From the NCBI GenBank assembly GCA_004362315.1, contig SNWL01000004.1, positions 992,001 to 1,056,000 of the forward strand: DNA of 64,000 bases. The letters are read 5' to 3'. This DNA comes from Mycobacterium sp. BK086 (GTDB taxonomy: Bacteria > Actinomycetota > Actinomycetes > Mycobacteriales > Mycobacteriaceae). Position numbers and translations under genes: made by a program. Below are positions 14,262 to 29,497 of this stretch, in pieces. Position 1 is the stretch's first letter; each line of letters starts with the position of its first letter. The notes beneath the pieces are model-generated. The model was not told the origin of the DNA. It was given only the letters and a program-made list of their open reading frames with translations, and made no database searches.

Positions 14262-14334
14262 GGGGCCTTAGCTCAGTTGGTAGAGCGCTGCCTTTGCAAG
14301 GCAGATGTCAGGAGTTCGAATCTCCTAGGCTCCA
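14262..14334 (+). tRNA. alaT: tRNA-Ala(TGC), carrying attL of the integrated element
   Basis: A 73-nt cloverleaf: acceptor GGGGCCT/AGGCTCC with a G-T pair, anticodon stem CTGCC/GGCAG with loop TTTGCAA (anticodon TGC), discriminator A at 14334, no encoded CCA. The 3' part from 14290 belongs to the 65-bp direct repeat of the element, so insertion left the tRNA intact. Confidence 0.98.
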
Positions 14335-14354
14335 CAATCAAACAGGGTCAGGCG
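14290..14354. repeat. attL, 65-bp direct repeat (left copy)
   Basis: Starts in the anticodon stem of tRNA-Ala and ends 20 bp beyond its 3' end. Identical to 29433-29497; bases on both sides differ between the copies (T/C before, G/T after). Confidence 0.95.
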
Positions 14355-14378: not shown

Positions 14379-15512
14379 TTAGGCGGCGTCTGTGCCCACA
14401 TCTTGCCCACACTTTCGAGTTAAAAGGGCATTCATGGCGACGCCGACCGCCTCGATGTCCGAGTCGTACAGGTGGCCATAGCGGTCCAGCGTCAGGGCCG
14501 CGGACTCGTGTCCGAGCATGTTTTGCAGGCTCTTGATGTTGGCCCCGGCCTGGATCGCCAGCGACGCCGCGGTGTGCCGCAGCTCGTGGAGCTTGAAGTC
14601 GTACACGGTGACGGGCTCCCCGGCCGCGTTCTTCTCGCTGCGGGGAAACAGCCGGGCCGCAGCGACGGCGTCTGACCACCACCGCCGGCGCACGTTCGTC
14701 CCGCGCATGTGGCGACCCAGGCTGTCGGGAAACACCAACGCGTCGGCCTCCCCCGCCGCCAGGAGGTCGGCGACGAACGCCGGCAGGCTCACCGTGCGAC
14801 CCTTCCCGTTCTTCGGAGTGCCGACCTCGAACACGCCATCGACAAGAGTCACCGAGCGTGCCACCCTGATCGCCAACCGGTCCAGATCAACATCGCGCCA
14901 ACGAAGCTCCGCCACTTCTCCGAACCGCAGTCCACACGTCCCCAGCACGTATACCAGCGGCCGATTCCCCTCGGCCGCCGCCGCTAGCGAGTGCAGCTGC
15001 TCCAAAGTCAGGAACCGCTGTTCGACCGACTCCACCGCAGGCAGCTCCACCCCATCAACCGGATTCACCACCAACCGGTTCTCGGCTACCGCCATCGCGA
15101 GCACCTGGCGCAGCACCCCGATCGTCTTGTGGACCGACGCTGGCGCGTGGGTGCGGTTCAAATCGGCGGCCCATTCCCGCACGAGTTGCCGGCTGACGTC
15201 AGCGATCGCCACCGCTGCGTGGTCGGCGATGAACGTGTCCAGCACCACCTGATACCGAGCCGTGGTCGACGGCTTCAGCTTGTGCTTCGAGCCCAGCCAT
15301 TCACGCGCGTACTCTCCCAGCTGCACGCGGCCCGCCGCCGGCGCAACGTACGCCCCGCGCCGCTTGTCGACCTCGAGCTGATTGGCCCAAGCCTCCGCGT
15401 CCCGTTTCGTCTTAAAGCCCCGCTTGTCAGTCTGCCGGCGATCCGGGGTCCGGTACCTAACTCGGTAACGAGTTGTGCCAGTGGCCGTTTGGTACTTGTC
15501 AATCGTCGCCAA
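14379..15512 (-). CDS. Tyrosine site-specific recombinase (integrase)
   Basis: Catalyses integration and excision at alaT. The protein is 377 aa, with an N-terminal arm-binding domain (RYRVRYRTPDRRQTDKRGF), a SAM-like core-binding domain (about 65-155) and the catalytic domain. The catalytic residues are visible: R196 (CGLRFGE), K near 234-237 (PKNGKGR), H309-x-x-R312 (HELRHTAAS), H335 (LGHES) and Y345 (DRYGH). It reads toward attL and ends 24 bp from it. Its start overlaps the repressor stop by 14 bp, so the two are probably cotranscribed. Confidence 0.96.
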   Translation of the reverse strand: MATIDKYQTATGTTRYRVRYRTPDRRQTDKRGFKTKRDAEAWANQLEVDKRRGAYVAPAAGRVQLGEYAREWLGSKHKLKPSTTARYQVVLDTFIADHAAVAIADVSRQLVREWAADLNRTHAPASVHKTIGVLRQVLAMAVAENRLVVNPVDGVELPAVESVEQRFLTLEQLHSLAAAAEGNRPLVYVLGTCGLRFGEVAELRWRDVDLDRLAIRVARSVTLVDGVFEVGTPKNGKGRTVSLPAFVADLLAAGEADALVFPDSLGRHMRGTNVRRRWWSDAVAAARLFPRSEKNAAGEPVTVYDFKLHELRHTAASLAIQAGANIKSLQNMLGHESAALTLDRYGHLYDSDIEAVGVAMNALLTRKCGQDVGTDAA

Positions 15513-25414: not shown

Positions 25415-26461
25415 CTACTTGAGCGGTGCGACGTCTTTCATCACGGACTCCAGTTCTTCGATGTGCTCACGCTCGGCCGCTTCCAGTTCCGCGGCTTTGC
25501 GGTTGTTGTCGAAAGTGGCGTAACGGTCCTCGGCGATGGCCTTCATCTTGTCCGACGAGATCTTGCCGTTGTTGGTCAGCACGTCGTGCTCGTTGAACGC
25601 GAGGAACTCGTCGGTCTTGGTGGCCCATTCGTCCATCGTGACCTGCTGCCGCCGGCGAGCACGTTCATCTGCGTAGTCCAAGAACATCGTGGTGATCCTG
25701 TTGAGCTGGGCGACCTCGGATTCTGTGAGGTAGTTCTTCGCGATGGTCACGTCGCTCTTGCGGACAACGGCCCCCTTCCACGTGGTCAACCCCATATTGG
25801 GCTCGTCGACCTTCGCCCGGGCACACACCAGTTCGGCTGCGGTATGGCGGGTGACGGAATACAGCAGCTTGTTCTGGATCGTCGCGAAGAACCGTGTGGC
25901 GGCGGGGCTGGTGGAGTCGTAGTCCACGCTGGTTTGAGCGAAGATGTCCCGGATCTTCTGGTAGAACCGCTTCTCGGATGCCCGGATGTCGCGGATCCGT
26001 TCGAGCAGTTCGTCGAAGTAGTCCAGGCCGGCGGGGTCCTTGAGCTTGGCGTCGTTCATGGCGAACCCCTTGACGAGGTATTCCCGCAACACCGTGGTCG
26101 CCCACTGGCGGAATTGGACACCACGCACTGAACGGACCCGGTAGCCGACAGCCAGGATCAGCTCAAGACTGTACGCCTCGATGTACCTCGTGACCTCACG
26201 GCCACCTTCGCTCTGAACTGTCCGGAATTTCCGAAAAGTTGCCTCCGGCCTGCACTCATCGTCATCGTAGACGTTCTTGATGTGTTCGCTGATCGTCGAA
26301 ACACTCTTGTCGAAGAGTTCGGACATGTCGCGTTGCGTCAGCCAGACGGTGCCCTCGACCGCCCGCAGTTGGATCTGCGTGTGACCGTCGGTGGTCTTGT
26401 ACACGATGAACTCACCCGTCCCGGTGGGCAGGTTGTGGTTGTTGTCGTCGGCGTCGCTCAA
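25415..26461 (-). CDS. RhuM-family protein
   Basis: A 348-aa protein of the RhuM family, named for a Salmonella pathogenicity-island gene of uncertain function. Visible features: an N-terminal DNA-binding-like part (AVEGTVWLTQRDMSELFDKS, VSTISEHIKNVY), the family core RYIEAYSLELILAVGYRVRS and FRQWATTVLREYLVKGFAMN, and a long helical C-terminus ending EHIEELESVMKDVAPLK. I start at the TTG at 26461: an AGGAAGG ribosome site lies just upstream and the family similarity begins there. Carried on islands and phages; likely cargo. Role unknown. Confidence 0.85.
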   Translation of the reverse strand: MSDADDNNHNLPTGTGEFIVYKTTDGHTQIQLRAVEGTVWLTQRDMSELFDKSVSTISEHIKNVYDDDECRPEATFRKFRTVQSEGGREVTRYIEAYSLELILAVGYRVRSVRGVQFRQWATTVLREYLVKGFAMNDAKLKDPAGLDYFDELLERIRDIRASEKRFYQKIRDIFAQTSVDYDSTSPAATRFFATIQNKLLYSVTRHTAAELVCARAKVDEPNMGLTTWKGAVVRKSDVTIAKNYLTESEVAQLNRITTMFLDYADERARRRQQVTMDEWATKTDEFLAFNEHDVLTNNGKISSDKMKAIAEDRYATFDNNRKAAELEAAEREHIEELESVMKDVAPLK

Positions 26462-26596
26462 TTGTCGACCTTCCTGTTGTTGGACAAGGAAGTGTCGAGG
26501 CCGCTGAGCGACCCGGATCCACAGCCACGATTCCGCCGGGATGCTGCCATTTGTCGGCGTTTCGCTTAGACTCGTGATTGTCCTACCAAGACATCC

Positions 26597-26633
26597 CCGA
26601 GCCCTGCTGGAGTCCGCTTCGGCAGGGCCTCGG
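26597..26633. terminator. Hairpin upstream of the RhuM-family gene
   Basis: CCGAG-CCCTGC pairs with GCAGGG-CCTCGG apart from one extra base, with a 14-nt loop. It lies between two leftward genes and may end the upstream transcript. Confidence 0.45.
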
Positions 26634-26643
26634 CATTTCCATG

Positions 26644-26663
26644 GGCGGGACAGTCTTCCCGCC
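26644..26663. terminator. Second hairpin upstream of the RhuM-family gene
   Basis: GGCGGGA, loop CAGTCT, TCCCGCC: perfect 7-bp arms, 11 bp from the preceding hairpin. Similar in sequence to the hairpins at 21042-21084. Confidence 0.4.
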
Positions 26664-26756
26664 AACTGACAGCTTAGCGGTGGGTACCGACAGCATTCGG
26701 CGTGTCGCGGCCGGTGTCTTCGTACACTCGTTCGGCATCTGGCCCGGTGCTACCCG

Positions 26757-27098
26757 TCAGCCCGCTGCGGATCGGCGCCCCGGGCCGTGCCGGGGTAGAT
26801 CGAGAACTTGCGCGGCCGCGTCGACCCCGATGACGACGTCCCGGACCAGGCGCTTGCGCCACTGTAGAACCAACTGCAGCAGCTGCTCCGGGTCGGTTGA
26901 CGCCGCGACGACTAGCGCCGCGGCCAGCTCATTGCGCCGCACGTTTGCCCCTGCGCTGTTGGCGATCTCGACCAACTGATCAAGCCGTCGATCGACCGGT
27001 AGCGGCCAACTCAGCGCGGCAGGTTTTTTGATCGCCTTCGCCGCGACCAAGTTCGCGTCGAGTTTGACCCCCGACTCATCTGTCACTGCCACCACCAT
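26757..27098 (-). CDS. Hypothetical actinobacterial protein
   Basis: A 113-aa protein. Its middle (LPVDRRLDQLVEIANSAGAN, VRRNELAAALVVAASTDPEQ, LLQLVLQWRKRLVRD) is a helical pattern that recurs in actinobacterial mobile elements; R-N-E-L-AAALV resembles small helical dimerisation proteins. Likely real, but without assigned function. Upstream of RhuM on the same strand. Confidence 0.6.
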   Translation of the reverse strand: MVVAVTDESGVKLDANLVAAKAIKKPAALSWPLPVDRRLDQLVEIANSAGANVRRNELAAALVVAASTDPEQLLQLVLQWRKRLVRDVVIGVDAAAQVLDLPRHGPGRRSAAG

Positions 27099-27175
27099 CC
27101 CGGCGCGTCTTTGTTGGCTCTATGTATTTAGGCAGTAGTCTTCAAATACGTATCCAGAATATTCTTAGGATCAGT

Positions 27176-27493
27176 ATGCGTGAGTCAGCTCAGTTGTTCG
27201 AGCCCGTCGTGGATATCCGAGACGTACTGGAATCTTTCCTAGTGGACGCCGTCCTTCTGGCTGACTGGCAGGCGACCTTGACGTCGGCGGCAGTCCGGAT
27301 TTCAAACCTGGCGCAGGCGTGGTCTGACCAAGACCTGCTTGACCTCGCGAACATCACCGGGCAGCTTGCCGGCACGTCCCTCGTCGTCGACACCGCGCTA
27401 GTCCGGACAGCGGCAGACAACGTGGCTAGATTGCTTGAACAGGTGCGCGCCCCCGGCGTACCTCGGCCTGAAGACGAGGACTGGGCGTTCTAA
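27176..27493 (+). CDS. Hypothetical small helical protein
   Basis: A 105-aa, acidic, mostly helical protein (VVDIRDVLESFLVDAVLLAD; LDLANITGQLAGTSLVVDTA). The ATG at 27176 follows a TAGGAT ribosome-like site. It converges on the phosphoribosyltransferase gene, with a 4-bp overlap of stops. Its link to the neighbouring pair is unknown. Confidence 0.55.
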   Translation: MRESAQLFEPVVDIRDVLESFLVDAVLLADWQATLTSAAVRISNLAQAWSDQDLLDLANITGQLAGTSLVVDTALVRTAADNVARLLEQVRAPGVPRPEDEDWAF

Positions 27494-28374
27494 CGAAACT
27501 TCATTGTCCTGACGGCCGCTATGGCGGCCACGCGGATGGCGCCGGCGGCGCGAAGAGCACGCGCGGTCTCCTCTGCCGTGGCACCGCTGCCGTACACATC
27601 ATCGACGATCAATATGTATTGACCGGAAACATCAACGGGGCAATGAAACTGCTCATGGAGCGCGTCGGCGCGTTGCGCAGGTTCCAAACTTTTCGCGGGC
27701 GCGCGGAACACCTGTGTCGATTCGCAGCGGACGACAGGAACGTTACCGAGGTCGCGGGCCACAGTCGCAGCAACGCGCGCGCCAAAACTCGGCACACGCG
27801 AGTCGTGACCCGGAACCGATCCAATCGCGTCAACGCCTTTCAGGAGAGGGTGCTGTGCGATGAACTCAGTTAACTCGCCGGAGACGGCTCTGCCGACGTT
27901 GCCCTGGTTCTCGGCATCGGCCTTGTACCAGTACTTGCCACGATGGACCAAGTCCGCAAGGTCTGTGTGGCCGCCAAGGCGTTCGTCGACGATCTTGTTG
28001 TACCAATCAAGTGCGATCGCGTAATCGACCGAATTCCTGCAGGGGAGAATGACAACGCCCTGCAGGAGTTGCAGAAGGGTGGATGTGGCGGCGGTCGGCT
28101 GAGCTCCAGCGCCGTCTAGCGAATGGTGATCGATAAACGCCCTTCTAGGCGTGTAGCTGGAGTCGGTTAGCTTGACCTGGTCGATGGCGCCCTGCGGCCC
28201 GACAACGTGCAGTACGTGTCCACCGGTTGATCCCGGTTCGTGGCGGTACTCGGTGACATATGCACCACCGCCGTTGGTGGGGCCGCTCTGGGATAAGTCT
28301 CTGATGACCATGAAGCCTGCTAGGTGGGTTTGTCGTCCTATATCGTCGCTCGGGAGCCCGGCATACCTCAGTCC
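27490..28374 (-). CDS. ComF-like phosphoribosyltransferase (candidate defence partner)
   Basis: A protein of about 294 aa. The C-terminal third is a type I phosphoribosyltransferase: the PRPP-binding loop VDDVYGSGAT (27577-27606) comes after a strand ILI, as in ComF and related enzymes, and is followed by helix AEETARALRAAGA. The N-terminal two thirds match no family I know; WYNKIVDERLGGHTDLADLV lies before the transferase part. The start is uncertain: the longest frame begins at 28461, inside the divergent DprA-like gene. I use the GTG at 28374; an ATG at 28311 is also possible. Head-to-head with the DprA-like gene near attR. Confidence 0.7.
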   Translation of the reverse strand, partial: GLRYAGLPSDDIGRQTHLAGFMVIRDLSQSGPTNGGGAYVTEYRHEPGSTGGHVLHVVGPQGAIDQVKLTDSSYTPRRAFIDHHSLDGAGAQPTAATSTLLQLLQGVVILPCRNSVDYAIALDWYNKIVDERLGGHTDLADLVHRGKYWYKADAENQGNVGRAVSGELTEFIAQHPLLKGVDAIGSVPGHDSRVPSFGARVAATVARDLGNVPVVRCESTQVFRAPAKSLEPAQRADALHEQFHCPVDVSGQYILIVDDVYGSGATAEETARALRAAGAIRVAAIAAVRTMKFR

Positions 28375-28453
28375 CGACACGCGGATTTGTCGGTACTCGA
28401 AAGTATGTTCGAATAGGACGTAGACTCTCGCCCGCGTGCCAAGGAGGTGAGCG
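28375..28453. promoter_or_regulatory. Divergent control region of the phosphoribosyltransferase/DprA-like pair
   Basis: The short gap between the two heads. It contains TACTCGAAAGTA (28393-28404), an imperfect inverted repeat, and a perfect AAGGAGGTGA ribosome site (28441-28450) for the rightward gene. No firm -10/-35 pair is visible. Confidence 0.45.
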
Positions 28454-29314
28454 ATGGGCACCGACTCGCTTATGCGGCTTCAGTACGCGATTGCGGCCAC
28501 AAAGTTCGGCGGGGGACAAAGGACTATCTCTGCGAAAGCTAGAACTGGCGGCCTCCGCGCATTCGAACAAGTTGTTGATGTGCTACAGCCCGCAGAGCGC
28601 CAGCTTGTCGAGGATCAAGCTGAGGAACTTTTCGACAGCGGGGTCGACGCGGTCCTCCTTGGTCAGGAGAACTACCCGGACGCCTTGGCTGCATCCAGGC
28701 AGGCCCCCGCAGCGGTCTTCTCCAAAGGTCCCATCGAGCTGCTTAGGCGGCGCGCAATAGGCGTGTGCGGTTCACGTCAGGCGAGTGCCGAGGGGCTGCG
28801 TGCGGCGCATGCATGCTCTGACGCAGCCGCCAGGCGCGGCTACTGCGTGGTGTCTGGCTACGCGAAAGGGGTCGACCTCGCTGCACATTCAGCTGCCCTC
28901 GCAGCCGGGGGCACGACTGTCATCGTGCTCGCCGAAGGGATCAACCACTTCAGAGTCCGGCGCGGCGAGTTCAGTGACTTGTGGGACCCCGCGCGTGCGC
29001 TGGTCGTATCGCAGTTCGCACCAGACCAAAAGTGGTTTGCATCGGGTGCGATGACTCGTAATGCGGTTATCTCGGAGTTGAGTCGGGCACTCGTCGTCGT
29101 AGAAGCAGGCGAGAAGGGTGGCACACTGGCCGCCGGCGAATATGCGTTGCAACGGAACCAGCTAGTGCTAGCACTGCAGCTGTTCGACGCAGCCCCCGGC
29201 AACAAGCTCTTGATAGCCAACGGCGCGAAGGTCATTCGTAGCCGGCAGCATCTCGAAGCCGCGCTCGATTACCTCGACAGGGGTAAATCGTTCGAACAAT
29301 TAACCCTGATGTGA
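28454..29314 (+). CDS. DprA/Smf-like SLOG-domain protein (candidate defence gene)
   Basis: A 286-aa protein of the DprA/SLOG Rossmann superfamily: IGVCGSRQAS (102-111), CVVSGYAKGVDLAAHSAALA (131-150), TRNAVISELS (201-210) and VVVEAGEKGGTLAAGEYAL (214-232) follow the DprA pattern GSR...VSG.A.GID..AH...RNR...LS...VVVEA...GT L. It lacks the winged C-terminal domain of housekeeping DprA, and its N-terminal 95 residues are different. DprA loads RecA on single-stranded DNA; SLOG relatives bind nucleotides and occur in conflict systems. Location at the element edge beside a phosphoribosyltransferase suggests a defence role, which is inference. Confidence 0.8.
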   Translation: MGTDSLMRLQYAIAATKFGGGQRTISAKARTGGLRAFEQVVDVLQPAERQLVEDQAEELFDSGVDAVLLGQENYPDALAASRQAPAAVFSKGPIELLRRRAIGVCGSRQASAEGLRAAHACSDAAARRGYCVVSGYAKGVDLAAHSAALAAGGTTVIVLAEGINHFRVRRGEFSDLWDPARALVVSQFAPDQKWFASGAMTRNAVISELSRALVVVEAGEKGGTLAAGEYALQRNQLVLALQLFDAAPGNKLLIANGAKVIRSRQHLEAALDYLDRGKSFEQLTLM

Positions 29315-29432: not shown

Positions 29433-29497
29433 GCCTTTGCAAGGCAGATGTCAGGAGTTCGAATCTCCTAGGCTCCACAATCAAACAGGGTCAGGCG
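29433..29497. repeat. attR, 65-bp direct repeat (right copy)
   Basis: Identical to 14290-14354. Includes the last 42 bases of tRNA-Ala; upstream sequence does not restore a tRNA. Confidence 0.95.

Follow-up and report, generated by a model that had tools for sequence, protein, structure and literature searches.

A four-gene module of Mycobacterium sp. BK086: a probable SOS-boxed variant of the ShosTA/PsyrTA toxin-antitoxin and phage-defense kind

The stretch of DNA analyzed here (the window) comprises 64,000 bp of contig SNWL01000004.1 of Mycobacterium sp. BK086, whose genome of 6.93 Mb is assembled into 11 contigs. It contains a 15.1-kb element whose two ends are exact 65-bp copies of a tRNA-Ala 3' portion plus the bases that follow, and near one of these ends lie four genes, named here B, A, T, and D. 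T encodes a phosphoribosyltransferase (PRTase), the predicted toxin, and D a DprA-like protein, the predicted antitoxin. Gene content, conservation, resemblance in family and fold, att sites, and the promoter box described below were computed here; genomes and DNA stretches used for comparison carry G and L labels. The features of the module, by window position, are as follows.

26757-27086, minus strand: gene B, 109 aa, ribbon-helix-helix-like by eye
27176-27493, plus strand: gene A, 105 aa, without an assigned family
27490-28311, minus strand: gene T, ComF/ShosT-type PRTase, 273 aa, predicted toxin
27577-27606, minus strand: loop VDDVYGSGAT of T (residues 236-245), binding phosphoribosyl pyrophosphate (PRPP)
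28111-28251, minus strand: small N-terminal strand-strand-helix-strand-strand part of T (residues 21-67) in the AlphaFold2 (AF2) model
28312-28453, unstranded: 142-bp region of the divergent T/D promoter; GCGTGTC and GACGATATAG are invariant in an alignment of five loci
28397-28412, unstranded: LexA/SOS-type box TCGAAC-N4-GTTCGA, one mismatch
28454-29314, plus strand: gene D, DprA/SLOG protein, 286 aa, predicted antitoxin
29297-29311, plus strand: C-terminal QLTLM of D, candidate sliding-clamp-binding peptide

An initial annotation, made from the letters of the window, had described the T/D pair; A, B, the LexA-type box, and a further DprA/transferase pair of this genome, outside the window, are additions to it. 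It had read T as a ComF-like transferase with a VDDVYGSGAT loop, head-to-head with a DprA-like open reading frame (ORF), and both identifications hold: T matches Pfam Pribosyltran with 27 bits (cut-off 26.3), and D matches Pfam DNA_processg_A with 151.9 bits (E 1.9e-44). Residues D237, D238, G243, and T245 of the loop are invariant among 11 aligned relatives. The listed ORF of T reaches 28461. The GTG at that position was rejected as the start: clear homology begins at residue 51, which corresponds to ATG 28311, and both the homology and the start codons of the four other intact loci agree with that ATG. In G060, moreover, a TAG interrupts the longer frame ahead of the matching position, and the DNA upstream of ATG 28311 aligns across loci as a conserved promoter region. 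T most likely starts at ATG 28311, and with this start it is 273 aa long and separated from D by 142 bp, in place of the "79 bp or less" given initially.

In fold comparisons of the T model, ComF and the toxin ShosT, whose structure is solved, are both on top (Helicobacter pylori ComF, Z 13.2), in rows that mostly cover residues 109-273 and barely test N-terminal residues 21-67. The VIA alignment of the model with ShosT begins at model residue 84, equivalent to ShosT residue 166, and Foldseek aligns T and ShosT over 235 columns (TMq 0.47). The PRTase part of T aligns to positions 572-685 of the 689-position PsyrT model; T scores 35.4 bits against PsyrT.

D scores 152.4 bits (E 4.7e-45) against the PADLOC PsyrA model, compared with 84.8 for the housekeeping DprA of the same genome. 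As first noticed, the usual C-terminal winged domain appears to be lacking: no further C-terminal Pfam domain is matched, and D is 286 aa long as against 377 aa in another DprA of the genome, whose longer C-terminal part we took by eye for that domain. Because the genome has two DprA genes besides D, D is, as had been supposed, an extra copy and not the only DprA of the strain. In a DprA tree, a single branch with 100/100 support separates 15 rows from pairs or mobile DNA, D among them, from 10 housekeeping rows; frames for this tree were chosen by motif, L031 was omitted for want of a match, and the pair group takes in a Corynebacterium plasmid DprA (L083) with no annotated transferase beside it in the stretch seen.

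D terminates in QLTLM, after a variable linker, in all five intact loci of the module. Related ends occur in the D fragment of G222 (QLSLM), in G437 (QLTLT), and in the ShosA of phage P2_4C9 (QLSLLGDE), and a QLTLM-like end is present in 7 of the 15 tree rows that come from pairs or mobile DNA and in none of the 10 housekeeping proteins. The eight pair or mobile rows that lack it are G009, the second pair of this genome on contig C8, Vasanti, Bosnia, phiOH2, Mana, a plasmid of M. intracellulare, and C. atrinae (which ends AQLFA). Clamp-binding peptides are reported to follow the consensus QLxLF and to be frequently C-terminal (PMC4549789), and a mycobacterial one is given as QLPLWG (PMC10421592); QLTLM departs from QLxLF at the last position. 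We offer only as a suggestion that the tail could bind the sliding clamp.

The element that carries the module has the following landmarks.

14290-14354, plus strand: attL, exact 65-bp repeat formed by the 3' portion of tRNA-Ala (gene at 14262-14335) and the next bases
14379-15512, minus strand: tyrosine integrase of the element, adjoining attL (Pfam Phage_integrase, E 9.1e-18)
29433-29497, plus strand: attR, second copy of the 65-bp repeat

The T/D pair sits at the attR end, the stop codon of D lying 118 bp before the repeat copy, which bears out its initial placement at the edge of a mobile element. Other cargo includes a weakly helix-turn-helix-like protein and one with weak matches to phage replication initiators. 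A RhuM-family gene (25415-26665; 362.7 bits) also lies within the element, as the neighbor of B.

All six near loci, namely the window, G047, G060, G064, G222, and Mycobacterium sp. 236(2023), have B, A, T, and D in this order and in unchanged orientations, with L020, the G047 contig, counted once. T and D are present and divergent in every one of them. Judged by this locus, the nearest named kin are Mycobacterium sp. 236(2023) and the metagenome-assembled genome Mycobacterium sp. AWTP1-6. Identity to the window ranges over 56-70% for T, 67-83% for D, 53-75% for A, and 61-66% for B. The ratio of changes at codon position 3 to those at position 2 is 2.6 for T and 3.9 for D (five loci) and 2.9 for A and 4.0 for B (six loci); all four genes thus change mostly at third positions, as expected for real proteins. 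One locus, G222, has decayed (L041, 10327-12707), the only one of the six in which this was seen: D is interrupted by an IS21-like istAB pair (by eye), and T carries stops and is split over two frames. Joint decay is what a toxin-antitoxin pair would require, and one case proves little.

At E <=1e-10, T was found in 6 of 297 genomes of the genus, namely five with the four-gene unit and G009, which has a tandem pair at 32% identity. A occurs in precisely those five genomes and B in seven, the same five plus G087 and G156; the models of A and B were built from these loci, and their informative part is the absence from other genomes. These searches scored the best candidates per genome (5-7 for T in genus, order, and class; 15-16 for A and B), and misses are possible. 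As the sample is related by descent, we attach no probability to the distribution.

Among 397 genomes of the order, T matches in six, including this one; in G437, D stands beside T, and the contig also bears a gene resembling that of a tape-measure protein (by eye). In G361, G381, and G449 (L044, L015, and L017), relatives 27-28% identical to T have no neighboring DprA and adjoin a ribonucleotide-reductase-like gene (by eye); they possibly represent an ancestor that was not a toxin, or serve in nucleotide metabolism. Matches in the class number 17 of 394 genomes, again including this one; the other 16 cover the PRTase end only, and in one of these, G865, a DprA-like gene lies within the flanks of about 1.5 kb. 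A pattern search of the genome contig collection matched 22 stretches, two of them relatives; tblastn at 1e-5 gave no match to T in the phage and plasmid collections; and 324 IMG/VR stretches were matched by alignment, of which one was confirmed, at 33% identity over 43 residues (L098).

The T/D gap contains a LexA-type box, within one mismatch, at all six near loci. TCGAAC-N4-GTTCGA is the reported mycobacterial LexA consensus (PMC4181829); it is exact in G064 and Mycobacterium sp. 236(2023) and has one mismatch in the other four (window, G047, G060, G222). No other site with <=1 mismatch occurs in any of the six stretches (17-64 kb), and shuffling each gap yields such a box in 0 to 7 of 5000 trials. 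The box precedes the start of D by 41-44 nt in five loci and the ATG in G060 by 28 nt; in the window it lies 41 nt from the start codon of D and 85 nt from that of T. Genome-wide there are 14 exact boxes, as against none for the reversed pattern, mostly at gene starts, and many of the genes concerned belong by eye to the 13E12 repeat family. Boxes as imperfect as that of the window precede the recA match and the lexA match (two at lexA). On the T side of the gap, GACGATATAG is a possible -10 element of T. A PafBC-type (RecA-independent damage) promoter, judged by eye, is not claimed, since the motif does not fit all five intergenic sequences.

Together, the position of the box and its repetition from locus to locus suggest a conserved SOS site at the T/D promoter, with predicted LexA binding by which a DNA-damage alarm would tune the module. 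One limited literature search found no report of LexA control of a ShosTA-type pair, and passages of a paper on AbpAB (PMC10732053) draw no link between ShosTA and LexA. Outside the near loci, Gordonia phage Vasanti carries a one-mismatch LexA-type box just upstream of its dprA-like gene (L078, 3799-3842), with an integrase gene about 2 kb off. L044 and L045 have three one-mismatch sites each, thousands of bases from T, and no LexA-type site was found on scanning L007, L046, L099, and L100.

The two small genes flank the pair on the T side, A being convergent with T, with a 4-bp overlap at the stops, and divergent from B. A matched no Pfam or PADLOC family, and B none convincingly; IMG/VR pattern matches (61 stretches for A, 221 for B) included no relative of either. 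B is probably a DNA-binding regulator, to go by its ribbon-helix-helix-like sequence. The A/B divergent region (27087-27175) contains conserved GGCGCGYC and TTTAGG-containing elements (by eye, six loci), perhaps the operator of B. The two additional genomes with B are distant: in G156 (L099, 4774-6622) and G087 (L100, 4842-6602), a B-like gene, ribbon-helix-helix-like by eye, lies near a protein-kinase-like gene (by eye), and B may be a regulator common to different conflict modules. We infer that A and B are dedicated accessory genes of the unit.

Toxicity, neutralization, phage protection, and triggers are carried over here from the literature on relatives. A DprA plus PRTase pair of a P2-like phage is reported to protect E. 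coli from T7 and lambda (PMC9122126). The toxicity, SOS induction, and filamentation caused by RqlH need its PRTase domain and PRPP loop, and the DprA-like RqlI restrains it (PMC4670107). ShosT is described as disturbing purine metabolism and ShosA as binding DNA, with T7 Gp0.7, which inhibits the RNA polymerase of the host, as a trigger (PMC12593503); a response of ShosTA to replication intermediates has also been suggested (PMC10732053).

We regard the module as probably a variant, with four genes and wired to DNA damage, of the ShosTA/PsyrTA (RqlHI) kind of toxin-antitoxin and phage-defense system. What places the pair in this known kind is its partner and its fold; the helicase and the one-strand layout are lacking. 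The initial annotation had proposed an undescribed defense module: a mobile defense cargo fits, whereas the claim of an undescribed kind falls, ShosTA and PsyrTA/RqlHI being known and D fitting the PsyrA model far better than housekeeping DprA does, with T resembling ComF and ShosT. The four-gene, SOS-boxed, divergent form is new as far as our searches reach.

By analogy with these relatives, T would bind PRPP and, when free, upset nucleotide pools or nucleobases and so damage DNA, and D, as a DprA-like DNA-binding protein, would neutralize T or its effects. An infection that cuts host transcription, or makes abnormal replication intermediates, could tip the balance to T and stop the infected cell. 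LexA is predicted to sit at the divergent promoter, nearer D, and damage made by T would therefore cleave LexA and raise D (perhaps T also), a feedback sparing uninfected cells that we infer from the box; a phage that shuts off its host would block this rescue loop. The unit may also help to keep the tRNA-Ala element or its own locus. In a more specific and rather unlikely version, defense would be gated by DNA damage throughout: LexA would time a clamp-docking D that reverses or repairs the damage done by T, A and B would adjust the response, and only cells in which a phage has seized transcription would fail to rescue themselves.

If the variant proposed here is real, the box would link a genotoxic toxin-antitoxin pair with the same stress response that toxins of this sort set off, which bears on how ShosTA/PsyrTA-type systems spare their host and are wired into its physiology. 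Two genes that match no family travel with the pair in mycobacteria.

Several observations weigh against assignment to the ShosTA/PsyrTA kind or against the regulation proposed. On both ShosA models D scores below the housekeeping DprA (133 versus 161 and 75 versus 83 bits). The PsyrT/ShosT match of T is unspecific, a remote stand-alone transferase without DprA scoring as high (35.4 bits for both on PsyrT; 28.5 against 24.4 bits on ShosT), and T reaches 38.9 bits on the NCBIfam GntX model (cut-off 304). The co-occurrence of homologues anticipated by the initial annotation holds for near relatives, paired at six of six loci, and fails for remote ones: of the six genomes of the order with a match, four have a transferase 27-28% identical to T that has no DprA next to it. 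T and D are divergent and form no operon, and all six loci depart in this from the one-strand pair of ShosTA/PsyrTA. Shuffling a 64-kb sequence of this composition produces a one-mismatch box at some position in 16 of 100 trials, hardly a rarity, and the LexA argument therefore rests on place and repetition. Nor is the box general: eight of 11 other DprA loci (L006, L042, L043, L077-L083, and L097) lack it, and among these 11 only Vasanti has it just before dprA; in L042 one box lies within the gene called as T and a second lies elsewhere, and in L081 the box is away from dprA. Besides D, T too could be under the control of the box. Finally, one survey reports PsyrTA and ShosTA as under-represented in defense islands (PMC10924106).

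Of the alternatives, we take most seriously, while doubting it on balance, the idea that the unit mainly prevents loss of the element or of its own locus, with phage protection secondary or absent. Two copies of the tRNA-Ala end flank the unit in four of six loci (the window, G047, G060, and G222, the second copy in G222 carrying two mismatches), and in the window and G047 the unit lies at the element end opposite the tRNA gene. In G060 only about 3.2 kb separates the copies, with B, A, T, and D alone among the ORFs called; because only these four genes lie between them, the unit there has outlived any integrase. Codon use of the module genes looks foreign, third-position GC being 0.57-0.77 in those called as against mostly 0.75-0.9 in flanking genes. 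Against this, the unit of G064 neighbors a sigM-like gene (by eye), and the 20-kb stretch there contains no tRNA; in Mycobacterium sp. 236(2023) it adjoins tRNA-Ala and no second att copy was found; the phage-borne relatives and the tested P2-like pair, too, point to defense. It is also possible, if unlikely, that LexA control arms the defense rather than feeding back on D only, damage or prophage induction raising both T and D and so priming the cell. A single box does serve the divergent promoter, but it lies nearer D, with the invariant GACGATATAG of the T side some 45-60 nt away.

Two further explanations seem remote. SLOG and PRTase folds bind nucleotides. The initial annotation allowed for immunity based on a nucleotide second messenger, made or sensed by T or D, which we now hold to be highly improbable: in relatives the PRTase is described as a directly genotoxic toxin and its DprA-like partner as the antitoxin (PMC4670107, PMC12593503), and the only constant neighbors in the six loci, A and B, match no effector family (neighbors outside the window were not domain-searched). 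A role as a second comF/dprA set, with housekeeping-like functions in DNA uptake or recombination, would agree with the closeness of the T fold to H. pylori ComF, the best by Z, and with the membership of D in the DprA family. It is nevertheless very unlikely, given the fully supported branch that divides D from housekeeping DprA and the patchy occurrence of the near form (5 of 297 genomes of the genus), mostly on mobile-looking DNA.

The ShosTA/PsyrTA-type reading remains the one we favor, and the module can be set against the systems it resembles. With housekeeping DprA and ComF it shares family and fold; housekeeping DprA has a longer C-terminus and is separate in the tree. DprA/PRTase-type pairs sit in Gordonia, Geobacillus/Thermus, and Burkholderia phages. 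Among actinophages and plasmids, the pairs of Vasanti and Bosnia (both Gordonia phages), of the M. intracellulare plasmid, and of contig C8 in this genome likewise have adjacent genes, near integrases in the phages, but belong to another part of the DprA tree and have D before T on one strand, with no match to A or B in L006. The C8 pair itself (C8:232000-248000; L006, 7189-8250 and 8135-8998), also on one strand with D first, scores 188 bits on the ShosA model and falls in the branch of the Gordonia phages and the M. intracellulare plasmid; since ParA/ParB-like genes (by eye) lie nearby, it is probably on a plasmid or mobile region.

Tandem pairs in G437, G009, and the IMG/VR stretch L097 include the closest DprA kin outside the module, at 44-45% identity, with T 27-28% identical in G437 and G009; in these, T precedes D on one strand, and the G009 and G437 stretches have no match to A or B. 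The G009 locus (L042, 6624-10891), near tRNA-His, runs from T and D into a third gene, whose 835-aa product is in part metallo-beta-lactamase-like (by eye), possibly another extended variant. The pair in L097 (4153-5864; IMGVR_UViG_3300028040_000001) lies on a 46-kb viral contig, its D 45% identical to that of the window.

ShosTA of E. coli and P2-like phages differs in the size of the toxin, T having 273 aa as against 424 aa in P2_4C9 ShosT, of which the first 165 residues or so lie outside the VIA alignment; the phage pair is on one strand, whereas the module is divergent and adds A, B, and the LexA-type box. PsyrTA/RqlHI is like the module in that D is nearest the PsyrA model, T matches the PRTase end of PsyrT, and, in the relatives described, a DprA-like partner restrains a PRTase-bearing toxin (PMC4670107). 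PsyrT and RqlH, however, are RecQ-PRTase proteins and T has no helicase domain, and the mycobacterial module is set apart from them by its divergent genes, by A and B, and by its LexA-type box.

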